From assembly GCF_018138085.1 (NCBI RefSeq), contig NZ_CP073105.1, positions 1-64,000 of the forward strand: DNA of 64,000 nucleotides, in the 5' to 3' direction. The notes below the pieces were generated by a model. That model saw nothing but the letters and a program-made list of their open reading frames with translations. It did not search any database and had not been told where the DNA came from. Of this stretch, positions 50,192-63,673 are shown in pieces. The first letter of the stretch is position 1; the number at the start of each line of letters is the position of its first letter. Both the position numbers and the translations under genes were made by a program. This DNA is from Stutzerimonas stutzeri. GTDB taxonomy: Bacteria > Pseudomonadota > Gammaproteobacteria > Pseudomonadales > Pseudomonadaceae.

Positions 50192-52240
50192 ATGACGTAC
50201 GCACTCGACTATCAGGCCATATTCGAAGCCAATCCCAACCTGCACCTGATCCTGGCGCCGGATAAAGATTTCACCGTTCTGGCCGCGAACGACGCGAGGC
50301 TGCGCGCAACCTATACACGCCGAGAGCAGAGCGTGGGCCGCCCGGTTTTCGAGGTGTTTCGCAAGAATCCGGATGATCCTGACGAGTTCGGCACAAGCGT
50401 GCTGCGCGCCTCCCTGGAGCGCGTTCTGCGCAGCCGCAGCCCTGACGAGATGGCCATCACCCGCTACGACATCCCGCGTCCGGCCTCGGAAGGCGGCGGC
50501 TTCGAGGTGCGCTACTGGAGCCCGGTCAACGTCCCGGTACTCGGCGCCGACGGCAACGTGCGCTACATCATCCACCAGGTCGAGGACGTGACCGACGAGG
50601 TGCAGCAGCCTGATGCGGGCATGCTCAGCCACCTCAACGAGCGCTTTCGCGCCGCCCTACTGGCCTCGGGCACCGGCACCTTCAACTGGGCGCTGCGTGA
50701 CGGCAGCCTGCACTTCGACAGTGCCTTGGAACAGATATTCGGCCTGGCCCATGGCGTCCGTGTCGCCAACCTCGAGGGCTTCGTCGCCCAGGTCCATCTC
50801 GAGGACCGTGAGCGGGTGCGCCAGGCGTTCGAGCAGTATGCCGAGGGTGAGGATTTCGCCATCGAGTTCCGCCTGGCCCGCGCCAGTACCGGGGACAAAT
50901 GGCTGGCCTGCAAGGCCAAGGCCTTCTGCGATGCCGAGGGCACCCTCGCCTACGTCGCTGGCGCCTGCACCGACATCACCGCACGCAAGCAGGCCGAAGA
51001 ATCGCTGCGTATCAGCGAGAACCGCCTGCGCCAGCTCAATGAACAGCTCGAAGCGCGGGTGGCGACTGAAGTGCGTGAGCGCAGCCGTACCGAAGACGCC
51101 CTGCGCCAAGCCCAGAAAATGGAAGCCGTCGGCCAGCTCACCGGCGGCATCGCCCACGATTTCAATAACCTGCTCACCGGCATCGTCGGCAGCCTGGACC
51201 TCATGCAGCGCCGCCACGCCCGCGGCGAGCAGGACCTGGATCGCTACATCAACGCCGCGGTCACCTCGGCCCAGCGTGCCGCGGCGCTGACCCAACGGTT
51301 GCTGGCCTTCTCGCGCCGACAAACCCTTCACCTCAAGCCGGTCGACGTCAACCAGCTGGTGGCGTCCCTGGAAGATCTGCTGCACCGCACCACCGGCGAA
51401 AACATCACGCTGGAGACCCGGCTCAGCGCCGGCCTGCTGCCCGCCTGCATGGATGCCAATCAGCTGGAAAGCGCGGTGATCAATCTGGTCATCAACGCCC
51501 GCGACGCCATGCCCCACGGCGGGCGTATCACCGTGTCGACCGCCTCCTTCGTCATGGGCAACCGGCCCGATCCGGCCAAGCGCGGCCTGAACGAAGGCGA
51601 ATACATCCTGCTCAGCGTGACCGATACCGGCACCGGCATGACGCCGGAAATAATCGCGCGCGCCTTCGAGCCCTTCTTCACCACCAAACCCATCGGCCAG
51701 GGCACCGGGCTCGGGCTTTCCATGGTCTATGGCTTCATCAAGCAGGCCAAGGGCTACGTGCAGGTCGAGTCCGAGCCGGGCCGCGGCAGCCGCGTCTGCC
51801 TCTACCTGCCGGTCCACCATGGCGAAGCGGTCACGCCGGTCCCCGAAAGCGAGCCGGTGCTCAACGGCGCGGGCGAAACCATCCTGGTGGTCGAGGACGA
51901 GCCGGTGGTCCGCTCCCTCGTCGTCGAGGTGCTTAACGATCTCGGCTACCAGACGATCGAAGCTGGTGACGCCACCGAAGCCCTGCCCAGCCTCGAGGAT
52001 GGCCAGCGCATCGACCTGCTCATCACCGACGTCGGCCTGCCCGGCATGAATGGCCGGCAACTGGCAGACGTCGCCCGCCAGCACCGCCCCAGCCTCAAAG
52101 TCCTGTTCGCCACCGGCTACGCCGAAAGCGCCACGGCGAAGGATTTCCTAGGCAAGGGCATGGCCGTCATTACCAAACCCTTCGCCATCGAAGCCTTCGC
52201 CAGCAAGGTCCGCGAAATGCTCGGCCCGCAGGCCGGCTGA
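50192..52240 (+). CDS. Hybrid PAS sensor histidine kinase with C-terminal receiver
   Basis: This is a 682-residue soluble hybrid kinase. It has two PAS-like regions (about 1-130 and 150-270), a coiled coil (about 270-310), a dimerisation/phosphoacceptor domain with H322 in [13 protein letters not shown], a HATPase domain ([26 protein letters not shown]) and a receiver domain with phospho-acceptor D613 in [10 protein letters not shown]. No membrane segment is seen, so the signal is cytosolic. No partner regulator is adjacent and the stimulus is unknown. Confidence 0.88.
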
Positions 52241-52510
52241 GCCCGGCGCCTTGCTGCTCGAGGGTAATCAGGCGCAGCCGTGAACCGGTCACAGCCCTGA
52301 AAAGCTGTGGCCGGGACGGGCCAGACACGTCTGCCAAACCCGTCCCCTTCCCTGCGCTCCTCCCTTGCGGTGCGACGCCTGAGCCTGGATGCGCCGGATG
52401 GGACGCGATTCACATGCCGCTGGTCCGCTACTTGCTCGCTAATAGCCATCAGCCACTGGCTGGGTAATTACTTCCCAGAAACAGACTATTCACAGAGACA
52501 GGTAGGTTCT

Positions 52511-53449
52511 ATGAAACGTGTAATGACATGGATGCTCGCGTTTTCACTGCCTTGCGCCGCAAGCCTGCAGGCGGCCAAGTCCGCGCAATGCGAGGTGGTG
52601 CGGCTGGCAGACGTCGGCTGGACCGACATCACCATGACCACAGCGATCACCCGCCTTCTGCTCGGCGATCTGGGTTATCGGACCCAGGTGTCGCGGCTGT
52701 CGCTCCCGGAAACCTACGCTGCCCTGGCGGATGGGAAGATCGACGTGTTTCTCGGCAACTGGATGCCCGCGCAGGCCGCGCTTGCCCAGCCGCATCTGGA
52801 TGCCGGGCGGATCGAGAAGCTGCAAACCAACCTGCCGGTCGTGCGCTATACCCTGGCCGTGCTGGAGCCCGCCTACCAGGCGGGGCTGCATGATTTCGCC
52901 GACATCCAGCGCTTCAACAAAGAGCTGGGCGGGAAAATCTACGGGCTCGAGCGCGGTAATGGCGGTAACAAGATGGTGCAGAGCATGATCGACGGCAACG
53001 TCTTCGGCCTGCAGGGTTTCACCCTGGTGGAATCGAACGAGAACGAAATGCTCAATCACGTCGAGCTGGCCCAGCGTCTGGGCAAACCGGCGGTGTTCCT
53101 GGGTTGGGAGCCGCACCCGATGAACGAACGCCTTCGCATGGTCTACCTGTCCGGCGGCGATGCCTATTTCGGCCCCAATAACGGCGCCGCACAGGTCAAC
53201 ACCGTCGCCCGCGGCGGCTTCTCGAAAGACTGCCAGAACCTGACGCGGCTATTTACCAACATGACCTTCACCATCGCGTCAGTCAGTGGACTGATGGCTG
53301 CGGTGCAAGAACCCAATACCAATCGCCGCCGGGTTGCCAAGCAATGGATCGAAGACAACCCTGACACCGTCGCCACCTGGCTCAAGGGTGTCAGCCATCG
53401 TGAGGGCGGAGCGGCGATAGCAGGAGTACGTTCGGCGGCAAGCAACTAA
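52511..53449 (+). CDS. Orphan choline/glycine-betaine ABC transporter substrate-binding protein
   Basis: The 312-residue protein has a signal peptide (about 1-22) and an OpuAC/ChoX-type fold: VVRLADVGWTDITMTTAITRLLLGDLGYRT, DVFLGNWMPAQ and AVFLGWEPHPMN, the aromatic-box type of quaternary-amine binding proteins. No permease or ATPase is adjacent. Pseudomonas often uses several orphan binding proteins (CaiX, BetX type) with one core transporter; that is inferred here. ATG at 52511 is chosen because it begins the signal peptide. Confidence 0.82.
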   Translation: MKRVMTWMLAFSLPCAASLQAAKSAQCEVVRLADVGWTDITMTTAITRLLLGDLGYRTQVSRLSLPETYAALADGKIDVFLGNWMPAQAALAQPHLDAGRIEKLQTNLPVVRYTLAVLEPAYQAGLHDFADIQRFNKELGGKIYGLERGNGGNKMVQSMIDGNVFGLQGFTLVESNENEMLNHVELAQRLGKPAVFLGWEPHPMNERLRMVYLSGGDAYFGPNNGAAQVNTVARGGFSKDCQNLTRLFTNMTFTIASVSGLMAAVQEPNTNRRRVAKQWIEDNPDTVATWLKGVSHREGGAAIAGVRSAASN

Positions 53450-54262
53450 GCACGGATCGGCGAAAGGCCGTCGCGCCGAGACGCACTAAGAGGCGCCCGG
53501 CCGCATCAATGCGGTGGTCGCCGTGGTGGCGGAACAGCCTGTTACCTTTGGTACCCAGCAGACGAGCGCAGGCAGCATTTCGCCTCGCTAGCGCTGGCGA
53601 AGCTGGATAACCGGCCGCCAGCGCTAGCTGACATTGCCTAGGCCCGTCGTGATTGCTATACCTCGCTTGCAGCAGGTCGGTGGCCAGCGCTCATTGTCAG
53701 CACCGATTAAGCCGCCCGGCTTCGACACCGTAGTCGTCAATAGCAAGCAACAGGGCCGTCGTCTTGTCCAGCGGTGTCCGCCCAGGGCCTGCCGTTGAAC
53801 TCAGCGAAACCCTTCATCTGTTAACCCTGCAAAAACTACTGATTAAGCCTTTCGGACCCTTTACCTGGCATATCGCCATCGGTAACGTGCCAGAGCGCGC
53901 CAGGATCTCCGCGCGCACACTTCGCCGCTCCGGCTCAAGCCCAGCGGTCAGCACAACGGGCATCCGCCCACACCAAGGACAGGCAGCGATGGCCCGCTTT
54001 TTCCCCGAATTGCTCCCAGGTTGCGACGCAAGCGAATACAGCGTCTCCGCCATCTTCTCCGTATTTGCAATCCGTCGTAGCGCCTTTCACGAGTTGATCC
54101 ATGGCAAAAGTCATAAGCATGGCCGTGACGTGGTGCATAACCAGAAAGACGGGCGTCGAAATCGTTGTGCTGCCCGGCGTAGAGCTGCTCAAGTCGCGAC
54201 GAAGAGAATCTTATCCACCACGCCCGTTCGGGGTGTTATGCACCAATTGGTGTCTAATTATA
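53450..54262. other. Gene-poor region before the cassette array
   Basis: About 810 bases separate the betaine-binding protein gene from the first cassette. Several short frames exist but none resembles a known protein. A perfect 13-bp inverted repeat (53587-53599 with 53616-53628) forms a hairpin. An integron integrase would be expected here on the minus strand, but no tyrosine-recombinase motifs were found. The right end grades into the AT-rich array and ends in a GTTAGGC core. Confidence 0.6.
53587..53628. repeat. Perfect 13-bp inverted repeat hairpin
   Basis: GCTAGCGCTGGCG is followed by its exact inverted copy CGCCAGCGCTAGC after a 16-base spacer. It lies 137 bases after the betaine-binding gene and has no T-tract. 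Role unknown. Confidence 0.6.
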
Positions 54263-54269
54263 GTTAGGC
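54212..54269 (+). other. Candidate attI recombination site
   Basis: The first cassette begins at a GTTAGGC core (54263-54269). Upstream lies GGTGTTATGCACC and a GCACCAATTGGTG dyad, reminiscent of the TGTTATGNAGC repeats of integron attI sites. No attC-like partner arm is present to the left, so this is more likely attI than attC. The 5' limit is arbitrary. Confidence 0.4.
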
Positions 54270-54274
54270 ACAAC

Positions 54275-54613
54275 ATGAAACTAGACCGTGCCAGGCAGTT
54301 AATAAATGAGGGGATTGATAGAAACAACCCAATGGGTAGCCTCATTCATATTCTTGAATCAGCTATTGAACTCGTGTCGCTCCCGGATAATGATTTCTGT
54401 TGGTCATATTGGGAGAGTGGAGAAGAAGCAAAGCAAGAGATGCTTGCTTTAATAGGTTCAGTAAAAAATGGCGTTTTACCTGACCAAGAAAAAATATCAG
54501 TACTGTTTGCTGTAACTGGCCCGCTGCAAGAGGTTAGCATGAGCAGTGGCTGGGCTGACGCATACTTAAAAATTGCGGATAAATACGATAAAGTTGAAAG
54601 TATTTTATGGTGA
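54275..54613 (+). CDS. Cassette 1 hypothetical protein
   Basis: The 112-residue acidic soluble protein (MKLDRARQLINEGIDRNNPMGSL..., ending DKYDKVESILW) is not recognised. It is mostly helical by composition and has no signal or membrane segment. The ATG at 54275 lies six bases after the GTTAGGC core with no clear ribosome-binding site, common in first cassettes. A longer frame from 54101 crosses the recombination core and is rejected. It ends just before attC-1. Confidence 0.68.
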   Translation: MKLDRARQLINEGIDRNNPMGSLIHILESAIELVSLPDNDFCWSYWESGEEAKQEMLALIGSVKNGVLPDQEKISVLFAVTGPLQEVSMSSGWADAYLKIADKYDKVESILW

Positions 54614-54615
54614 GC

Positions 54616-54692
54616 GGCTAACAAGGCGCTCAAATCGTTCGCTTCGCTCACTGGGACGGGCTAAAGCCCGCCCCTTAGCTTAATCGTTAGAG
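54616..54692 (+). repeat. attC-1 (cassette 1)
   Basis: The site opens with CTAACAAGGCGCTCAAA, shares the TTCGCTTCGCTCACTGGGACGGGCTAAAGCCCGCCCC core, and ends at GTTAGAG (54686-54692). Its outer arms differ from the other six, so it may be of another lineage. Confidence 0.85.
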
Positions 54693-54701
54693 ATCAACAT
54701 C

Positions 54702-55249
54702 ATGGCTGCACTTTTAGCCGTTATAATCGCCGGAGCCATAGCAGTATTTATGTTTGGCTTCCTAGTTGCCGCCTCATTCAATGTAGGCTGGGGCCTGTCA
54801 ATCGGAGAAATAGCTTCGCTATTCGTTGCATCAGCTGCTTTTTTTATCTCAACATATCAGACGTATACAACAAGGTTGCATAATAGACTTACAGTTAAAC
54901 CAAAAATCTCAATAAATATATCGCTATCAACGGGGAACTCCCCATCTGTTGGATTTTTTGTGAAAAACTCAGGCACCGGCCCAGCAGTGATTGAAAGCAT
55001 AGAACTAATAAAAGGTAACGAAAGCGGTTATTAACAGATGGATCGTTTAAAAAAATTGTTCCCAACTGGGCTAATCAACAATTCAAATTCACAGCACTAC
55101 CCATGGGCTACCCCCTACTAAGCAATGATGGCGTATGGATTGTTGAAACGTCATCCTCAAATCATGCAGTCTTTGACTCAGAGCTTGATGGCTTACAATC
55201 AAAGTCAAATATAAGTCTATTTACGATGAGCTCTTTTCCGGCTCGTTGA
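54702..55249 (+). pseudogene. Cassette 2 membrane protein gene, frameshifted
   Basis: The first frame (54702-55034) encodes 110 residues with two hydrophobic N-terminal segments and a following soluble domain. After the TAA at 55032 the coding sense continues in another frame from about 55028 to a stop at 55249, adding about 73 residues (LLTDGSFKKIVPNWANQQ...). One base appears missing in the GG run at 55026-55027. The full product would be about 182 residues, an N-terminal membrane anchor with a cytoplasmic domain. Family not recognised. Confidence 0.7.
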
Positions 55250-55261
55250 GTGTCAATTGAT

Positions 55262-55337
55262 CTCTAACAACTGGTTCAAACCGTTCGCTTCGCTCACTGG
55301 GACGGGCTAAAGCCCGCCCCTTAACCAAACGTTATGT
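55262..55337 (+). repeat. attC-2 (cassette 2)
   Basis: This 76-bp site has the outer arm TAACAACTGGTTCAAACC, which pairs with CCTTAACCAAACGTTA, and an inner GGACGGGCTAAAGCCCGCCCC hairpin. The core GTTATGT is at 55331-55337. Confidence 0.9.
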
Positions 55338-55360
55338 GCTATCAAATTAGGGAGTGAGTA

Positions 55361-56098
55361 ATGATTCCTAAGTATGGAAGTAATAAATTTCAGTGCCCAC
55401 ACTGCGAAACAGTTGCTGCTCAAGAGTGGTTTACAGCGAACAAAGCAAGCTCGACAGCAACCAGCATCATTAACCACCTCTATTTGGATTACAGAGCAAA
55501 AATTGATGATTATTCGCAAGAGACAATAAGTAGGTTTCTACAAGAAATTAATAATCCATTTAGCAACAGTTTTTATAAATTTGTCCCTAACGGTTTCGCA
55601 GTAGCAACATGCTCCTCATGTGAAAATTTTACACTATGGGTCAATACGGAGATTGTATTCCCAAAAAAAACCACGCTGCCGCCACCAAATGCCGACTTGA
55701 ACGAAGATATAAAATCTCTTTACCTTGAGGCCGCATCAATTCTTGTGGATTCGCCGAAAGGTGCGACAGCTCTACTGAGACTGGCACTCCAGAAATTGTT
55801 AGAGCAAGTCGGCAAGAGTGGTAAGAATATCAATGGTGATATCAAAGAGTTAGTTGCAGAAGGACTTAGCCCTAAAATCCAACAAGCTTTAGATCTGCTT
55901 AGAGTTATAGGAAATAATGCTGTTCATCCAGGACAGATAAACTTAGACGACAACACTGATATTGCTCAAAAACTTTTTGGGATTTTAAATTTTATTGCGG
56001 AAGAGCTTTTGACAAAACCAAAAGAGCTGGAGCAACTATATGCCGATTTAATCCCAAGTGAAACCAAAGAGCATATTAAGCAACGGGATGGAACATAA
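55361..56098 (+). CDS. Cassette 3 DUF4145 domain protein
   Basis: The 245-residue protein has an N-terminal zinc-ribbon-like pair of CxxC motifs (CPHCET, CSSCEN) and a C-terminal DUF4145 domain (IKSLYLEAASILVDSPKGATALLRLALQKLLEQVG...IGNNAVHPGQ). DUF4145 proteins occur with restriction and other defence genes, but no activity is established for this one. ATG at 55361 is preceded by GGGAGTGAGTA, a good ribosome-binding site. Base composition is AT-rich, unlike the chromosome. Confidence 0.82.
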   Translation: MIPKYGSNKFQCPHCETVAAQEWFTANKASSTATSIINHLYLDYRAKIDDYSQETISRFLQEINNPFSNSFYKFVPNGFAVATCSSCENFTLWVNTEIVFPKKTTLPPPNADLNEDIKSLYLEAASILVDSPKGATALLRLALQKLLEQVGKSGKNINGDIKELVAEGLSPKIQQALDLLRVIGNNAVHPGQINLDDNTDIAQKLFGILNFIAEELLTKPKELEQLYADLIPSETKEHIKQRDGT

Positions 56099-56167
56099 CA
56101 AATGGTTCAAACCGCTCACTCCGTTCGCTGGGACGGGCTAAAGCCCGCCCCTTAACCAACGTTAGGT
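56093..56167 (+). repeat. attC-3 (cassette 3)
   Basis: The 75-bp site overlaps the last codons of the DUF4145 gene. Its inner loop reads CGCTCACTCCGTTCGCTGGG instead of the usual TTCGCTTCGCTCACTGGG. The core GTTAGGT is at 56161-56167. Confidence 0.9.
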
Positions 56168-56178
56168 TGCAAGGGATT

Positions 56179-56544
56179 ATGCACGACATTAAATCAAACC
56201 TTTACCCATGCGCTCACTGCACCGGAGTCGGTACATGCAAGAACGGCCAGGAAGAACAATCGTGTGCCGTTTGTGTAAAGGACAGTGAATTAAAAGGCAA
56301 GGTGTTCATAGGGCTTCCCTGTTCTGTTTGCGGCGGAATAGGCCAAGCAGAGCCAAAAACAGAGCGCATCAATAAGCGTATGCCAGCGTTGCTCGGCTTC
56401 GCGGTAGTTTTCTTGCTCATCAGTATCGTGTTTTTTGCCGCATTAACAAACAGCCAATACTTCAGTGAAATCCTTGCCTTTTCCGGTACGCTAATTGGTA
56501 CGGTGCTAGGTTTCTATTATTCAGCCCGTGCGCGAGCAACCTAA
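56179..56544 (+). CDS. Cassette 4 zinc-motif membrane protein
   Basis: The 121-residue protein has two DnaJ-like cysteine motifs (CAHCTGVGTC near residue 9 and CSVCGGIGQ near 46), with a CAVC between them, and two C-terminal membrane segments (about 68-90 and 98-115). This suggests a zinc-binding cytosolic head on a membrane hairpin. ATG at 56179 follows AAGGGATT; a TTG at 56167 is an alternative. Not assigned to a family. Confidence 0.72.
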   Translation: MHDIKSNLYPCAHCTGVGTCKNGQEEQSCAVCVKDSELKGKVFIGLPCSVCGGIGQAEPKTERINKRMPALLGFAVVFLLISIVFFAALTNSQYFSEILAFSGTLIGTVLGFYYSARARAT

Positions 56545-56614
56545 CAACCGGTTTAAACCATTCGCTTCGCTCACTAGGACGGGCTAAGGCCCATCCCTTA
56601 ACCAAACGTAGTCC
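56539..56614 (+). repeat. attC-4 with defective core
   Basis: The arm ACCTAACAACCGGTTTAAACC is intact, but the crossover core reads GTAGTCC (56608-56614) where GTTRRRY is expected, as if one T were lost. The inner arm is also altered (GGGCTAAGGCCCATCCC). Recombination here is expected to be weak. Confidence 0.82.
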
Positions 56615-56631
56615 TATACAGAGGGTCCGCG

Positions 56632-57060
56632 ATGGCTCGAAGATCAACCAAGGCAGAAAATACCTTATTCGTTCTTGCCTTGATTATTGGGCTTCCTATC
56701 TACGGAATTTCAAAAATATTTGAGACCTCTGGCTGGGTAGCTCCATCACTTATAGTTACCGGAGTGCTGGCCCTAATAGCACTGTACAAATACAACAAAA
56801 AGCAGCAGCGCCTCGCATATCTACGAGAGAAATACAAAGAAGAAATAATTGTCCGTAAGATCTATGATGGATATTTCTGGGAAGGACAAACCTCTGAACA
56901 GCTTCTAGACTCCTTAGGTAGTCCTGAGGCTGTCGACAACAAGCTGTTAAAAACAAAAACAAAAGAAATTTGGAAATACAATCGGCAAGGTGTAAACCGC
57001 TTCGCACTTCGAATCACAGTAGAAAATGGCTATGTAGTTGGCTGGGATAAAAAGGCCTAA
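56632..57060 (+). CDS. Cassette 5 small membrane protein with BamE-like tail
   Basis: The 142-residue protein has two N-terminal membrane segments (about 10-30 and 35-52), a basic linker, and a C-terminal domain (GQTSEQLLDSLGSPEAVDNKLLKTKTKEIWKYN...ENGYVVGWD). The tail resembles the SmpA/BamE-type small beta-alpha fold in pattern (a GxPxxVD, Y, and V-x-G-W-D spacing), which is only suggestive. Start at ATG 56632; no strong ribosome-binding site. Confidence 0.7.
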   Translation: MARRSTKAENTLFVLALIIGLPIYGISKIFETSGWVAPSLIVTGVLALIALYKYNKKQQRLAYLREKYKEEIIVRKIYDGYFWEGQTSEQLLDSLGSPEAVDNKLLKTKTKEIWKYNRQGVNRFALRITVENGYVVGWDKKA

Positions 57061-57126
57061 AAATTGGTTCACCACTCGCTTCGCTCGCTGGGACGAGCTA
57101 AAGCTCGCCCTTAACCAAACTTAGGC
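57055..57126 (+). repeat. attC-5 with defective core
   Basis: The outer arm reads GCCTAAAAATTGGTTCACC and the crossover core CTTAGGC (57120-57126) has C in place of the G of GTT. The invariant AAC is AAA on the other side. The site overlaps the stop of cassette 5. Confidence 0.82.
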
Positions 57127-57147
57127 CACAGTCAACAGGAGAAAATC

Positions 57148-57363
57148 ATGGCTGGAATGCTTCAAATAATTACATACCTGCTCGCTTTCTATCTAGTAAT
57201 CAAGGGGGTAGAAATTCTTCAAATTGCTCTATCGTCAAATAGGGAGAAGCGCGGAGGAATTATCACATTGGGCGTATTGGTGCTACTGGCTTGCCTGATG
57301 GCTGCCGGCAGCTTTGTTGCTATGCAAGATCAGCAAGTGCAATCACTCAGTCGAAACCAGTAA
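57148..57363 (+). CDS. Cassette 6 small two-helix membrane protein
   Basis: The 71-residue protein is two hydrophobic helices (about 4-28 and 38-60) with a short basic loop (SSNREKRGG) and a polar tail. ATG at 57148 has AGGAG six to ten bases upstream. No family is recognised; it could be a small toxin, an immunity or a membrane-associated regulator. Confidence 0.65.
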   Translation: MAGMLQIITYLLAFYLVIKGVEILQIALSSNREKRGGIITLGVLVLLACLMAAGSFVAMQDQQVQSLSRNQ

Positions 57364-57378
57364 CTCTCATGAGCGTCC

Positions 57379-57465
57379 CCCTAACTTGCGGTTCAAGTCG
57401 TTCGCTCCGTTCACATGGCCGTCCAAAAGCCGCGCTTTTGGACGGCCCTTAACCTAGCGTTAGGC
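57379..57465 (+). repeat. attC-6 (longer, variant hairpin)
   Basis: This 87-bp site has the usual outer arms but an inner hairpin GGCCGTCCAAAAGC / GCTTTTGGACGGCC with a 14-bp stem unlike the others. The core GTTAGGC is intact at 57459-57465. Confidence 0.85.
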
Positions 57466-57488
57466 GGAAGCGCAAGGAGGCCATCAGC

Positions 57489-58036
57489 ATGAACGCGGTT
57501 TCGAAAGAAACAGCTCTTGAGTTTTGTAAGTTATGCAATTGGGCATACGAGTGCTGGTCGACACATAAACAGCTATTTGATAGCAATAGAAATCGTGAGA
57601 ATACTTTAGGTAAAGCTAGATACTTCACATCTAGGCTATCGATCATAACGCAAGAATATTCTCTCCAGCAGATTTGCAAGCTTCATGACCCAGCAATACA
57701 GCAGAGCAAAATTAATCTGACAATCGACTACATCTGCCGTTTTGGCGACTGGGCTGAATCAAGCACAAATATTCTGACCATTCAGAAAATCTCTCGAGCC
57801 TCGCAACAAAACTAAATGCGGCCCGCAACAAACTTCTAGCACACAATGACCTTGAGACAATAATGAAAAATGAAACTCTTGGAGAGTTTCCTCTAGGTGC
57901 AGACGAGCAGTATTTCAAGGAACTGCAAAACCTAGTCAACCTAGTGCATGAGAAATGGTTTGAATGCCCCTACCCGTTCAACGATTTAGCGATCGCAGAT
58001 GCCAATGACTTCATTCAGCTACTCAAGAAAGCCTAA
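57489..58036 (+). pseudogene. Cassette 7 HEPN/AbiU2-like gene, frameshifted
   Basis: The first frame (57489-57815) encodes 108 residues and stops prematurely. The coding sense continues in another frame to the TAA at 58034-58036 (LATKLNAARNKLLAHNDLETIMKNE...). Joined, the product is about 181 residues. It has helical content and RNKLLAHND, the RX4-6H signature of HEPN nucleases, with the preceding QQICKLHDPAI...NLTIDYI pattern of AbiU2-like proteins. A single base seems lost between 57760 and 57800. ATG follows AAGGAGG. Confidence 0.68.
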
Positions 58037-58106
58037 CAAGTGGTTAGAACCGCTCGCTTCGCTCACTGGGACGGGCTAAAGCCCGCCCCTTAACCAAACG
58101 TTAGCT
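58031..58106 (+). repeat. attC-7 (cassette 7)
   Basis: The 76-bp site runs from GCCTAAC to GTTAGCT (58100-58106), with both cores matching consensus, and overlaps the end of cassette 7. It is the last recognisable attC. Confidence 0.9.
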
Positions 58107-58115
58107 GGTATTGCT

Positions 58116-58460
58116 ATGAGTATTGATCAGTCCGAAACCGTCGACATCATAAGCCAGGCACCGGATGGCACCGTTGTGCTTACCATATCCGATCATCTGG
58201 AGTGGGACGCACAAAATGAGCACCTCTTTCTGCTACAAGAAAAGCTGAACTCATACTTTCGTTTCCTCGAAAGTGGTAAGATCTATGAATCTTATCCAAG
58301 TGCTAAAGGCGCCAATTTTCTCCTTAGCTTAGTTTGCCAGTTTCGACCAACAGAGGTAGCGTTGGGCTTTCTTGAAAGAGTTAGAAGTATTGCAGAGAGC
58401 GCAGGCTGTGGATTCAGTTGGCGGCCTCTCAATGGGGCATACATCGATGACCACGACTGA
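58116..58460 (+). CDS. Cassette 8 DUF6572 domain protein
   Basis: The 114-residue protein matches the DUF6572 form (VVLTISDHLEWDAQNEHLFLLQEKLNSYFRFLESGKI). It is soluble and acidic; function is unknown. It starts ten bases after the GTTAGCT core of attC-7. No attC follows it, so it is the truncated last cassette of the array or a cassette joined to chromosome by a deletion. Confidence 0.76.
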   Translation: MSIDQSETVDIISQAPDGTVVLTISDHLEWDAQNEHLFLLQEKLNSYFRFLESGKIYESYPSAKGANFLLSLVCQFRPTEVALGFLERVRSIAESAGCGFSWRPLNGAYIDDHD

Positions 58461-58472
58461 GATCATATATAT

Positions 58473-58856
58473 ATGACCCACTCCTTTTCCATACTCCCGC
58501 AGAACTTCGCAGTCGCACGGTTAGAGCCGAATGCTGACCTGCCGAGCGCTGTTTTGGCATCACCGGGCTTTATGTCGATCACTCGGACAGAGGATGAACT
58601 GTCGATCGTCTGTGCGGAGAATGTCGCAACCGGCTTAACCCGAGTGGATAGCGCGTGGCGCGCGATCAAGGTGCAGGGGCCGTTTGCTTTTGATCAAACG
58701 GGGGGGTTGGCGTCCTTCCTAGACCCGCTCGCGGTGGCTGCCATCGGTATTTTTGCGGTGAGCACCTTCGATACCGACTACATCCTGGTCAAGTCGGCTA
58801 ATCTCGAAGCCGCGGTGGCGGCGTTGAAGGATGCGGGCCACCCTCTCCTGGTCTGA
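58473..58856 (+). CDS. ACT domain-containing protein
   Basis: The 127-residue protein resembles two tandem ACT-like modules (LSIVCAENVATGL near 50; IGIFAVSTFDTDYILVKSANLEAAVAALKDAGH at the end), a fold that binds amino acids allosterically. It starts 12 bases after cassette 8 behind an ATATATATG stretch with no clear ribosome-binding site. GC content rises back toward the chromosomal level here, marking the right edge of the array. Confidence 0.72.
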   Translation: MTHSFSILPQNFAVARLEPNADLPSAVLASPGFMSITRTEDELSIVCAENVATGLTRVDSAWRAIKVQGPFAFDQTGGLASFLDPLAVAAIGIFAVSTFDTDYILVKSANLEAAVAALKDAGHPLLV

Positions 58857-59357: not shown

Positions 59358-59562
59358 GCTGCCCTGGCTATCCCAAGCGGCGTACGTGCGCCTGCTCCTC
59401 GCGCTGCGTTAATAGACTCTTAGAACATCACGCCGCAAGCAGCGCGATAGTGCTGTAAGGCCCGCAATCTCCTGTCAGTATCTACACGCGGGCTTTGGCG
59501 CACACGGCCTTGAGTTCGTCATGGCTGGACTTGCCCCTACAAAACCGGACACCAACTCCCCG

Positions 59563-60438
59563 TTAAATTGATGCTGCTGCCAAGCGCCTGAACTCCCTCG
59601 GCGAGCGGTATTTCAAAGCGCTGTGCGGATGCTGCTCGTTGTAATGCTCGAAGGCAATTGCCAGGTTGCGCAGCGCCGTTTCTCGATCCGGTTTGGGCAT
59701 GTGCGCCACGTAGTCACGCTTGATCGTCTTCACGAAGCTCTCAGCCATGCCGTTGCTTTGCGGGCTGCGAACTGGGGTGGTCACCGGCTGCAAGCCGATC
59801 TGTCGAGCAAACAGGCGTGTCTGTTCGGCGGTGTACGCCGAGCCGTTGTCGCTTAGCCATTGCACCGGCGTGGCGGGCAGTTGATCACCAAAGCGCTTCT
59901 CCACGCTTTCCAGCATCAAATCGCGGATATCATCGCCGCTGTACCCGGTCGGGCTCGCGACCCAGCCGATGGCTTCGCGATCACAGCAATCCAGGGCGAA
60001 GGTCACGCTCAGTTTGGCGCCGTCCTCGCAACGGAACTCAAAGCCGTCCGAGCACCAACGCGTATCGCTGGCTTCCACCGCAATACGGCCTTCGTGCCGA
60101 CGCGGCACACCGGGCTGTTTGATGCGGCGCTCAAGCAGCAAGTTGTGATCACGCATGACCCGGTAAACCCGCTTCACATTGATCGCCGGTAGCGACTGGG
60201 TTTCACGGGCGCGACGCAGCAATCCCCAGACGCGGCGGTAGCCGTAGCTGGGAAGTTCGCTGACCTGTTGCTGGATTTCAACTACCAGATCAGCATCGTT
60301 CACAGGCCTGCTCCGCCGTACTTTGGGGGATGCCGATTGCTTGATTCGAACCGTTAATTGCGAGCGCGCCACACCGAGACATTCGCTGACCAGCTTCACT
60401 GGTCGTCCCCCGGCAACAAGGGTGAGTGCGCAATCCAT
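59563..60438 (-). CDS. IS3-family transposase OrfB (DDE integrase domain)
   Basis: The 291-residue OrfB has the rve-type catalytic core. The DDE residues are visible as D in [13 protein letters not shown] in [10 protein letters not shown] and E in [17 protein letters not shown]. An N-terminal HTH_21-like segment ([14 protein letters not shown]) is present. It overlaps orfA and is in its -1 frame, so the active OrfAB is expected by programmed frameshifting. Confidence 0.94.
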
Positions 60439-60788
60439 TTTCGCGACCGGGCGATCTCCACGGCCTCTTTGAGGATTTCTGCTTCCATCGTTTTCTTGCC
60501 CAGCATCCGTTGCAGTTCACGGATCTGCTTGAGCGCATCGCTCAGCTCGGAGGCAGGTACCACGGCTTCGCCAGCACTGACCGCCGACAAACTGCCGTCT
60601 TGGTAAAGCTTGCGCCACAGGAATAGTTGGTTGGCATTGATGCCGTTACGCCGAGCCACCAACGAAACGCTCTGCCCGGGCTCAAGGCTCTCTCGAACCA
60701 TGGTCAGCTTTTGCTCAGGGCTCCAGCGGCGCCGCCGCTCCCGACCCAAAAGCTCCCCACTCTTATCGTTGCTATTAGTCATAAACAT
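60396..60788 (-). CDS. IS3-family transposase OrfA
   Basis: The 130-residue OrfA is a helix-turn-helix DNA-binding protein ([46 protein letters not shown]) with a C-terminal leucine-zipper-like coiled coil ([31 protein letters not shown]). The first ATG of the frame at 60788 is used, though a nearby downstream ATG is also possible. A CGAAAATGG stretch in the overlap may be the slip site. Confidence 0.92.
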
Positions 60789-61049
60789 AACCGTTTGCCT
60801 ATCCCTTATCGTAAGGGGGAAACGGTGTCCTGTCTTTCAGGGGGCTCGTTCAATGGCTCACCAGTTGCCGCTTACCCAGTTCGCCTGCCGCGTGCAGCGC
60901 TTCGATTGCCTCAAGCCCACGGGCGCCACCTCCAGGTTCTCGGGCCAGCCGAAAGAAAAAGCACAGATTTGTTTACCAATCAGTGGCTAGCTTCATAACA
61001 GCGTGTCACGTTCTACGGCGTAGCCCTTAATCCAACCAGGTCAGCACCC

Positions 61050-61616
61050 ATGCAGCTAACGACACTCCTCGTTCCAACCTACATACAAATGCTCAAAACT
61101 CTTTCAGGCTGGCTGAAGAAAGCGCAGGCCCAGCTACCGGAAGCAGAGGCGCAGGCGCTGTTATCCGCACGTCTAGCGCCCGACATGTATCCGCTGTCCA
61201 CTCAGGTTCGCTTTGCTTGTGTGCAGGCGCGGGAGGCCGTGTGCCGTCTGAGAGGAGAGCCGCTGCCAGCTGCCATTAACGAGCTGTTGAACGAGGGCCG
61301 ACAGGCTGTCAAACACCCCGGATCGCTTGCAGAGGCTTATGCCCGTATCGATGAGACGGTCACGTTACTCGACGGCCTCGCAGCCGATGCGCTGGATGCG
61401 AAGGCAGACAAGCCAATCGCCCACGAACTGCCAAACGGGATGATTTTTGACCTGAGCGCGGAGCAATACGCCCGTGACTGGACGCTGGCGCAGTTCTATT
61501 TCCACGTCATGACCGCCTATTCGATATTGCGTAATCAGGGGATCAATCTCGGCAAGGCCGATTACGTGGCGCACATGCTGCCTTATCTGCGTCCTGAATC
61601 GATTCCAAAGGGGTAG
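61050..61616 (+). CDS. DUF1993 domain-containing protein
   Basis: The 188-residue protein fits DUF1993, a DinB-like helical bundle family of unknown function (TYIQMLKTLSGWLKKAQAQL, FYFHVMTAYSILRNQGINLGKADY). No signal or membrane segment is present. Start at the ATG at 61050. Its neighbours on both sides are repeats or mobile DNA, and no partner is obvious. Confidence 0.85.
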   Translation: MQLTTLLVPTYIQMLKTLSGWLKKAQAQLPEAEAQALLSARLAPDMYPLSTQVRFACVQAREAVCRLRGEPLPAAINELLNEGRQAVKHPGSLAEAYARIDETVTLLDGLAADALDAKADKPIAHELPNGMIFDLSAEQYARDWTLAQFYFHVMTAYSILRNQGINLGKADYVAHMLPYLRPESIPKG

Positions 61617-63160: not shown

Positions 63161-63673
63161 TCAACCAACGAAGATTTCGGTTTGTGGGGCGAACTCGACG
63201 GACACGGTTTCGGCCGCGTAGCCTGCTACACGTTTGGTCTTGCCGTCCTCGTCGGTAACGCCTTCGATGACCTTGCCGGAGGCCGTCTTCAGCTTGTAGG
63301 GGCGGTTGGCCAAAGGCAGGCCGGTATCGCTATCGCTGAGCACGAAATGCTCGTCTAACTGGTTGGGTAGCGGCGCTGGCGCAGTGAAGGGCGCCGGGCT
63401 CACCGACGAGCCGACCAGGATATTGCCGGAGCCAGTCACGACGCTGCCGCCATGCGTCGTGGGGCTGCCGAGGAAGGCAACTGGCTTGCCGTTGACCAAG
63501 ATAGTGGCTTCGCCTTCTGGTATCGCGCCGCCACAGCTACTGGCGTCACCGACTCGGGCAGCAGGTAGGTTATTGAACAACACGTCGGGCGAACCAACCG
63601 CTATCGGGTTGGAACCGTGGCCGGGGATGGGGCAGGAGTGGGTGTCGGATAAGCGAGCAGCGGGCTTGGCCAT
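63161..63673 (-). CDS. PAAR domain protein with C-terminal extension
   Basis: PAAR proteins cap the VgrG spike of type VI secretion systems. The 170-residue protein has a PAAR domain (about 1-95, beginning MAKPAARLSDTHSCPIPGHGSNPI, with Cys14, His17-like ligands) and a C-terminal domain (YKLKTASGKVIEGVTDEDGKTKRV) that looks like the transthyretin-like adaptors that recruit cargo. ATG at 63673 follows AAAGGAACTCGT. No VgrG or structural T6SS genes are in the window, so this is an orphan module. Confidence 0.86.
   Translation of the reverse strand: MAKPAARLSDTHSCPIPGHGSNPIAVGSPDVLFNNLPAARVGDASSCGGAIPEGEATILVNGKPVAFLGSPTTHGGSVVTGSGNILVGSSVSPAPFTAPAPLPNQLDEHFVLSDSDTGLPLANRPYKLKTASGKVIEGVTDEDGKTKRVAGYAAETVSVEFAPQTEIFVG

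Follow-up and report, generated by a model that had tools for sequence, protein, structure and literature searches.

An integrase-less cassette array with its own attI in Stutzerimonas stutzeri, a candidate docking site for a distant integron integrase

CALINs, cassette arrays set apart from an integron integrase gene (intI), are reported to be mobilizable in trans by a functional IntI, and in Xanthomonas they recur at seven loci that are separate from the ilvD-linked intI, as set out in the part of PMC12444791 used here. One attI-headed CALIN is already in print, that of the Shewanella prophage M16-3, where it lies beside a complete integron according to the relevant portion of PMC9892861. 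A chromosomal integron of Pseudomonas stutzeri strain Q is cited in PMC2426708 and PMC8876359, and an excerpt of the latter places the cassette promoter within intI. In this context it is of importance that IntegronFinder, by the description of the program in the section of PMC9024848 relied on here, provides no attI detection outside class 1 integrons, so that attI-headed arrays could be missed. Among open-licence papers, no report of conserved intI-free attI platforms was found, nor of a conserved multi-site arrangement.

The array described here lies in the window, a stretch of 64 kb from a Stutzerimonas stutzeri chromosome; its features are compiled in the table. Seven attC in a single orientation, with small genes between them, extend from 54616 to 58106, on which repeat finding without a model and a covariance model agree, so that the seven same-family sites of the preliminary description are borne out. 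The attC-model search of the whole genome proposed there returned E values of 3.5e-22 to 1.5e-13 for the seven sites of the window; the model was trained on 12 attC, these seven and five at a distant intI locus, and the two sets therefore match by construction. At an E value of 0.01, with 150 of 1909 first-look candidates scored, the 5.07 Mb genome yielded the 12 training sites and no others. A first attC structure model (R1) gave a poor fold and was replaced by a second one (R2). From attC1 to attC7 the sites measure 77, 76, 75, 76, 73, 87 and 76 nt. The named fold pairs hold in 90.1% of the cells of the 12 attC, against 29–54% when the partner is slid by one to three columns, and folding of single sites as ssDNA gave z ≤ −2 for five of the seven window attC, the other two reaching −1.06 and −0.90. 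The GC content is about 62% on the left side of the array and drops to 38–49% inside it. Judged by eye, the ends of attC4 (CGTAGTCC) and attC5 (ACTTAGGCC) carry no regular GTT core, which hints at reduced activity, and the sole ORFs of cassettes 2 and 7 are shorter than the cassette (two broken-looking cassettes). The DUF4145 protein of cassette 3 (55361–56098) matches PADLOC PD-T7-4 with 246 bits and represents a candidate phage-defence gene carried on a cassette.

Table. Features of the intI-free platform and its conserved neighbours (window positions)
Feature	Position	Strand	Remarks
Hybrid histidine kinase gene, conserved left neighbour	50192..52240	+	Pfam; left of attI in several relatives
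Leader	54131..54205	+	Common in outline with intI-linked attI; GGTGCATAA at left end; alignment of 57 copies
attI copy	54206..54269	+	Two direct repeats; core GTTAGGC 54263–54269; assigned by similarity and position
Cassette 1	54270..54692	+	ORF 54275–54613; attC1 54616–54692
Cassette 2	54693..55337	+	ORF 54702–55034, not filling the cassette; attC2 55262–55337
Cassette 3	55338..56167	+	ORF 55361–56098 (DUF4145; PADLOC PD-T7-4); attC3 56093–56167
Cassette 4	56168..56614	+	ORF about 56179–56544; attC4 56539–56614, irregular core
Cassette 5	56615..57127	+	ORF 56632–57060; attC5 57055–57127, irregular core
Cassette 6	57128..57465	+	ORF 57148–57363; attC6 57379–57465
Cassette 7	57466..58106	+	ORF 57489–57815, not filling the cassette; attC7 58031–58106
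Terminal ORF (DUF6572), no attC after it	58107..58460	+	ORF 58116–58460; also in G028
ACT-domain gene, conserved right neighbour	58473..58856	+	
DUF1993 gene, conserved right neighbour	61050..61616	+	

The special feature of this array is its head. The GTTAGGC at 54263, at first counted as the first core of the attC series, turned out to be the core of an attI, since it matches the attI of the resident intI locus: positions 54211–54269 align with the latter over 59 bp at 84.7% identity (E 6e-13), and the window attI and the resident attI are each 89% identical to the consensus of the copies. Its direct repeats lie at 54210–54220 (CTTATCCACCA) and 54235–54245 (GTTATGCACCA), both of the TTATNCACCA type in the window copy, and the first cassette starts at the GTTAGGC core. 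Because the left junction of the window array matches the resident attI, the genome possesses two attI and one intI. By similarity and position, the array is more than a cluster of attC, having what appears to be an attI of its own. A search of 53700–54400 for promoters of the sigma-70-like type, and of this type only, gave 0 matches, with 0.5 expected.

No intI was hit in the 64-kb window, and a six-frame profile of 14 intact IntI proteins revealed no trace of the gene over the 4 kb preceding the array, in accordance with the claim that no integrase gene is present on that side. The possibility of intI remnants left of the array was dropped, as tblastn with the resident IntI produced chance-level matches in the window only and the profile remained blank. 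An intact intI on the other side of the array or close by, named in the preliminary description as the observation that would speak against it, was looked for and not found. The search for intI elsewhere, also suggested there, found a single integron integrase scoring above the family cut-off anywhere in the genome, located about 860 kb from the array at G000:C1:913861-914823 (TIGR02249 hit C1:913879-914823, 495 bits against a cut-off of 265, with eight further hits under the cut-off). Its frame of 321 codons contains no stop and is apparently intact, and NCBIfam gives the same family. On the other side of the gene, in the opposite direction, this locus has its own attI and five attC, and attC2 of the window, used as a plain DNA query, matches three of these attC at 86–97% identity over their length; the earlier option of an integrase far away fits this arrangement, in which the distant gene has an attC array of the same family. 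The window array and the resident intI array have no cassette in common, their attC being the only match. In terms of the usual classes, seven attC with no integron integrase nearby correspond to a CALIN, while an attI at the head, followed by cassettes in one orientation, is by sequence what a complete integron displays; the adjacent intI of a complete integron is missing, the nearest one over the cut-off being the gene about 860 kb away.

The position of the platform in the window, termed locus B, is conserved and free of intI. It was recognized in 16 copies from 15 genomes, matched by one or both flanks (for L163 it was the left flank, 92% identical along 1.8 kb), and a trace of intI within 4 kb to the left was present in none of the 16. 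A further position, locus A, is represented by 12 copies in as many genomes, brought together on the basis of the left flank, and again none of the 12 shows intI. According to Pfam, the left neighbourhood of locus B comprises kinase, oxidoreductase and DUF2934 genes, the right one ACT, DUF1993 and PAAR genes; L172, clustered with locus B at first, was excluded because its kinase match is a paralogue at 27–48%. Since 15 genomes have the same intI-free platform, the absence of intI here does not go back to a recent loss in this genome alone. A clean empty site was found in none of 19 relatives, in which the gap between the flanking genes varies (L246 and L256 are short contig ends), and three of these gaps (L248, L262, L263) hold attC or a decayed attI. 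Several other elements surround the array. A gene for a glycine-betaine-type substrate-binding protein (52511–53449), left of the attI, occurs in four of 56 genomes of the genus at E 1e-100 and in G030 (L198) follows directly to the right of the final attC in the intI array. Transposase genes (HTH_Tnp_1, rve) at 59527–60853, right of the array and absent at that point in G028, belong to an element which we take to be of the IS3 type, and on the minus strand at 63582–63653 there is an Rfam match to the Pseudomonas sRNA P10 (54 bits).

A survey of 56 Stutzerimonas-like genomes, one per species, located the attI query at 65 places in 36 of them. Sixty-two places from 35 genomes were analysed; G032:C1:915047, G065:C60:2919 and G015:C25:2 were omitted, the last two of which adjoin intI by their coordinates. 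Nineteen of the 62 adjoin an intact or broken intI, and the flank beyond intI is common to 17 of these 19 (L190 and L208 differ). The other 43 copies are spread over 29 genomes. For 40 of them the left flank, covering 4 kb in most cases and 815 (L169), 1927 (L211) and 3131 (L187) bases in others, is devoid of any intI trace; in L200 and L210 the 5′ end of intI survives as a short stub, and L206 is truncated by the end of its contig. In three of the 40 the attI is truncated (L207, L213, L217). At least one attC follows to the right in 37 of the 43 copies without full or broken intI alongside, and in four of the remaining six the contig there extends for at most 700 bases. At least two analysed copies are found in 22 of the 35 genomes, with a maximum of four. 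Attached to two loci are attC left of the attI match (five sites at L217, one at L177), and the 36-bp attI piece of L217, inside an array and beside assembly N, is likely an assembly artefact and was taken out of the cassette counts. In G070 two copies about 11 kb apart (L205 and L207, one truncated) occupy the same neighbourhood, as if duplicated or rearranged. Outside the genus, 390 genomes of the order gave matches in five, two from this genus and three from one other genus of the family; in the latter three (L264, L265, L266) an attI-like site is followed on its right by attC, and the stretches analysed contained no match to intI.

In quality, the attI copies of genomes with intI do not differ from those of genomes without it (p 0.30): the median identity of orphan attI was 0.94 in genomes with an intact intI (n = 10) versus 0.905 in those without one (n = 18), G069 (intI of another type) and G013 (broken intI) being counted among the latter, in an alignment that left out five of the 62 rows (L175, L206, L207, L213, L217) and with groups set by hand. 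In 11 of 13 pairs the attI was more identical than its flank, often slightly, with one tie and one reversal, in pairs that share genomes and are not independent.

It appears probable, on the strength of these sequence comparisons, that the array is a CALIN equipped with an attI and that a distant IntI loads it in trans, together with other docking sites. The platform, in which the attI and its leader precede seven cassettes and an integrase gene is lacking, would then belong to a set of conserved attI docking sites of the Stutzerimonas-like genus. One IntI, produced from a gene elsewhere (here at 913.9 kb), would excise cassettes at attC and insert them at the attI copies, its own as well as remote ones, and in this way cassettes would come and go in trans at the remote positions; the resident IntI presumably acts on the window attI and may well still do so. 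Most simply, the attI copies would go back to old duplicated integrons that lost intI, with L200 and L210 keeping a 5′ stub. Counting against loading in trans are the lack of a common cassette in the two arrays of this genome, the irregular cores of attC4 and attC5 and the two broken-looking cassettes, the 11 of 35 genomes that have attI copies and no intI at E 1e-40, an attI quality that does not differ with the presence of intI, an often slight lead of attI over flank in identity, the blank promoter search and the chance that the cassette block of G024 described below came from outside.

Cassette turnover at locus B can be followed by comparison with G028, the nearest relative at this locus. 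The two sequences are collinear at 83.4% from 50244 to 54269, share attC-sized matches only and are otherwise unrelated from there to 58029, and become collinear again from attC7 on at 89.7%; the change of cassettes ends exactly at the last base of the attI core. For only four of 55 locus-B cassettes (15 arrays, L163 included) does another genome carry a homologue at this locus. Cassette 5 of the window has one at this locus in G066 (92%). By the same measure, 29 of 135 cassettes of the intI loci have homologues, and the cassettes of locus B are thus at least as little shared; bodies below 100 or above 4000 bp and the array of L217 were dropped, and arrays were taken within 8 kb to the right. 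A family of nine long 'cassettes' of about 1–2.5 kb recurs across loci (L169, L171, L178, L192, L196, L216) and is possibly an insertion element dwelling in arrays. It can also be imagined that a complete integron lost its intI long ago and that array and attI have been frozen and decaying ever since. The irregular cores of attC4 and attC5 with the broken-looking cassettes would be at home in such a relic, as would the intI stubs of L200 and L210, the persistence of attI copies in 11 of the 35 genomes with no intI at E 1e-40 and the lack of a cassette common to the resident and the window array. Yet a frozen array should not differ wholly from its nearest relative between the attI and attC7 while both flanks stay collinear, nor would it leave 51 of the 55 locus-B cassettes without a counterpart at that locus elsewhere, and it does not account for a block of two cassettes in G024; a relic is accordingly unlikely.

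In G024 the first two cassettes of locus B (at 50 kb) match cassettes 17 and 18 of the intI array (at 3.78 Mb), with 98.75% identity over 881 bp. The match runs from the attI core to the end of the second attC, and both sides differ beyond it; the attI pair of G024 shows 95% identity over 61 bp, a closer match than that within the pair of the present genome, and the block is the sole case of such sharing within a genome that was seen. Its place, first at an intI-free attI and deep in an intI array, is what insertion by IntI at a remote attI would be expected to leave. The block could alternatively have come into both arrays from outside, but insertion at the remote attI would still be needed. 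Cassette 1 of the window is found in full length in the G024 intI array (89%) and also, in G060, at locus A (95%), which means that one cassette is present at all three kinds of site. For the genome of the window we infer movement in trans, the best sequence evidence coming from G024. Homologous recombination, or transfer of the whole locus between strains with IntI idle at the remote attI, could find homology in the attC, which are high-identity repeats of about 70 nt, and the neighbourhood is rearranged in places (the two sites in G070). In the G024 and G028 comparisons, however, one end coincides with the attI core beside unrelated sequence; as the core alone is common there, a crossover by homology is not expected at this point, and the explanation seems quite improbable. 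That the head is a chance off-target (attG-like) insertion site of the kind mentioned for integron integrases in a passage of PMC12444791, rather than an attI, is scarcely credible in view of about 64 bp with both direct repeats and the outline of the leader, common to intI-linked attI and across genomes.

Conserved intI-free capture sites with differing cassettes suggest that one integrase may serve several docking sites per chromosome. A wider form of loading in trans by a distant IntI, for which we see about even chances, is a distributed integron: in this genus one chromosomal IntI would serve one to three additional docking attI in trans, conserved and lying far apart, each with its array. 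If true, enzyme, capture sites and expression context would be split over the chromosome, and the docking sites would be maintained irrespective of the enzyme. Debris or chance insertion is one way to interpret cassette arrays that lack an integrase; headed by a conserved attI, they would be working capture sites, and their recurrence at fixed places would have a possible reason. One cell with one enzyme and several natural attI sites would furthermore provide a clean test of the action of IntI in trans.

Compared with the systems described so far, the locus resembles a CALIN in having at least two attC and no intI nearby, and departs from CALINs as usually defined, which have no attI, by an attI at its head and by a platform conserved in 15 genomes. 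The integron of strain Q, to judge by its genus, probably has an integrase and an attI of the kind present at the resident locus (913.9 kb); in strain Q intI is in cis, with the cassette promoter reported inside intI, whereas the platform of the window stands without intI. With the prophage M16-3 of Shewanella, too, one genome contains both a CALIN and a complete integron, and an attI belongs to each of them, but in the account drawn on it is one case within one prophage, and conserved chromosomal platforms across species are not part of that account. The CALINs of Xanthomonas share with the present locus the occurrence of integrase-less arrays at recurrent positions, with intI at one fixed place; the text of PMC12444791 consulted describes no attI for them, while the locus in Stutzerimonas is headed by one.
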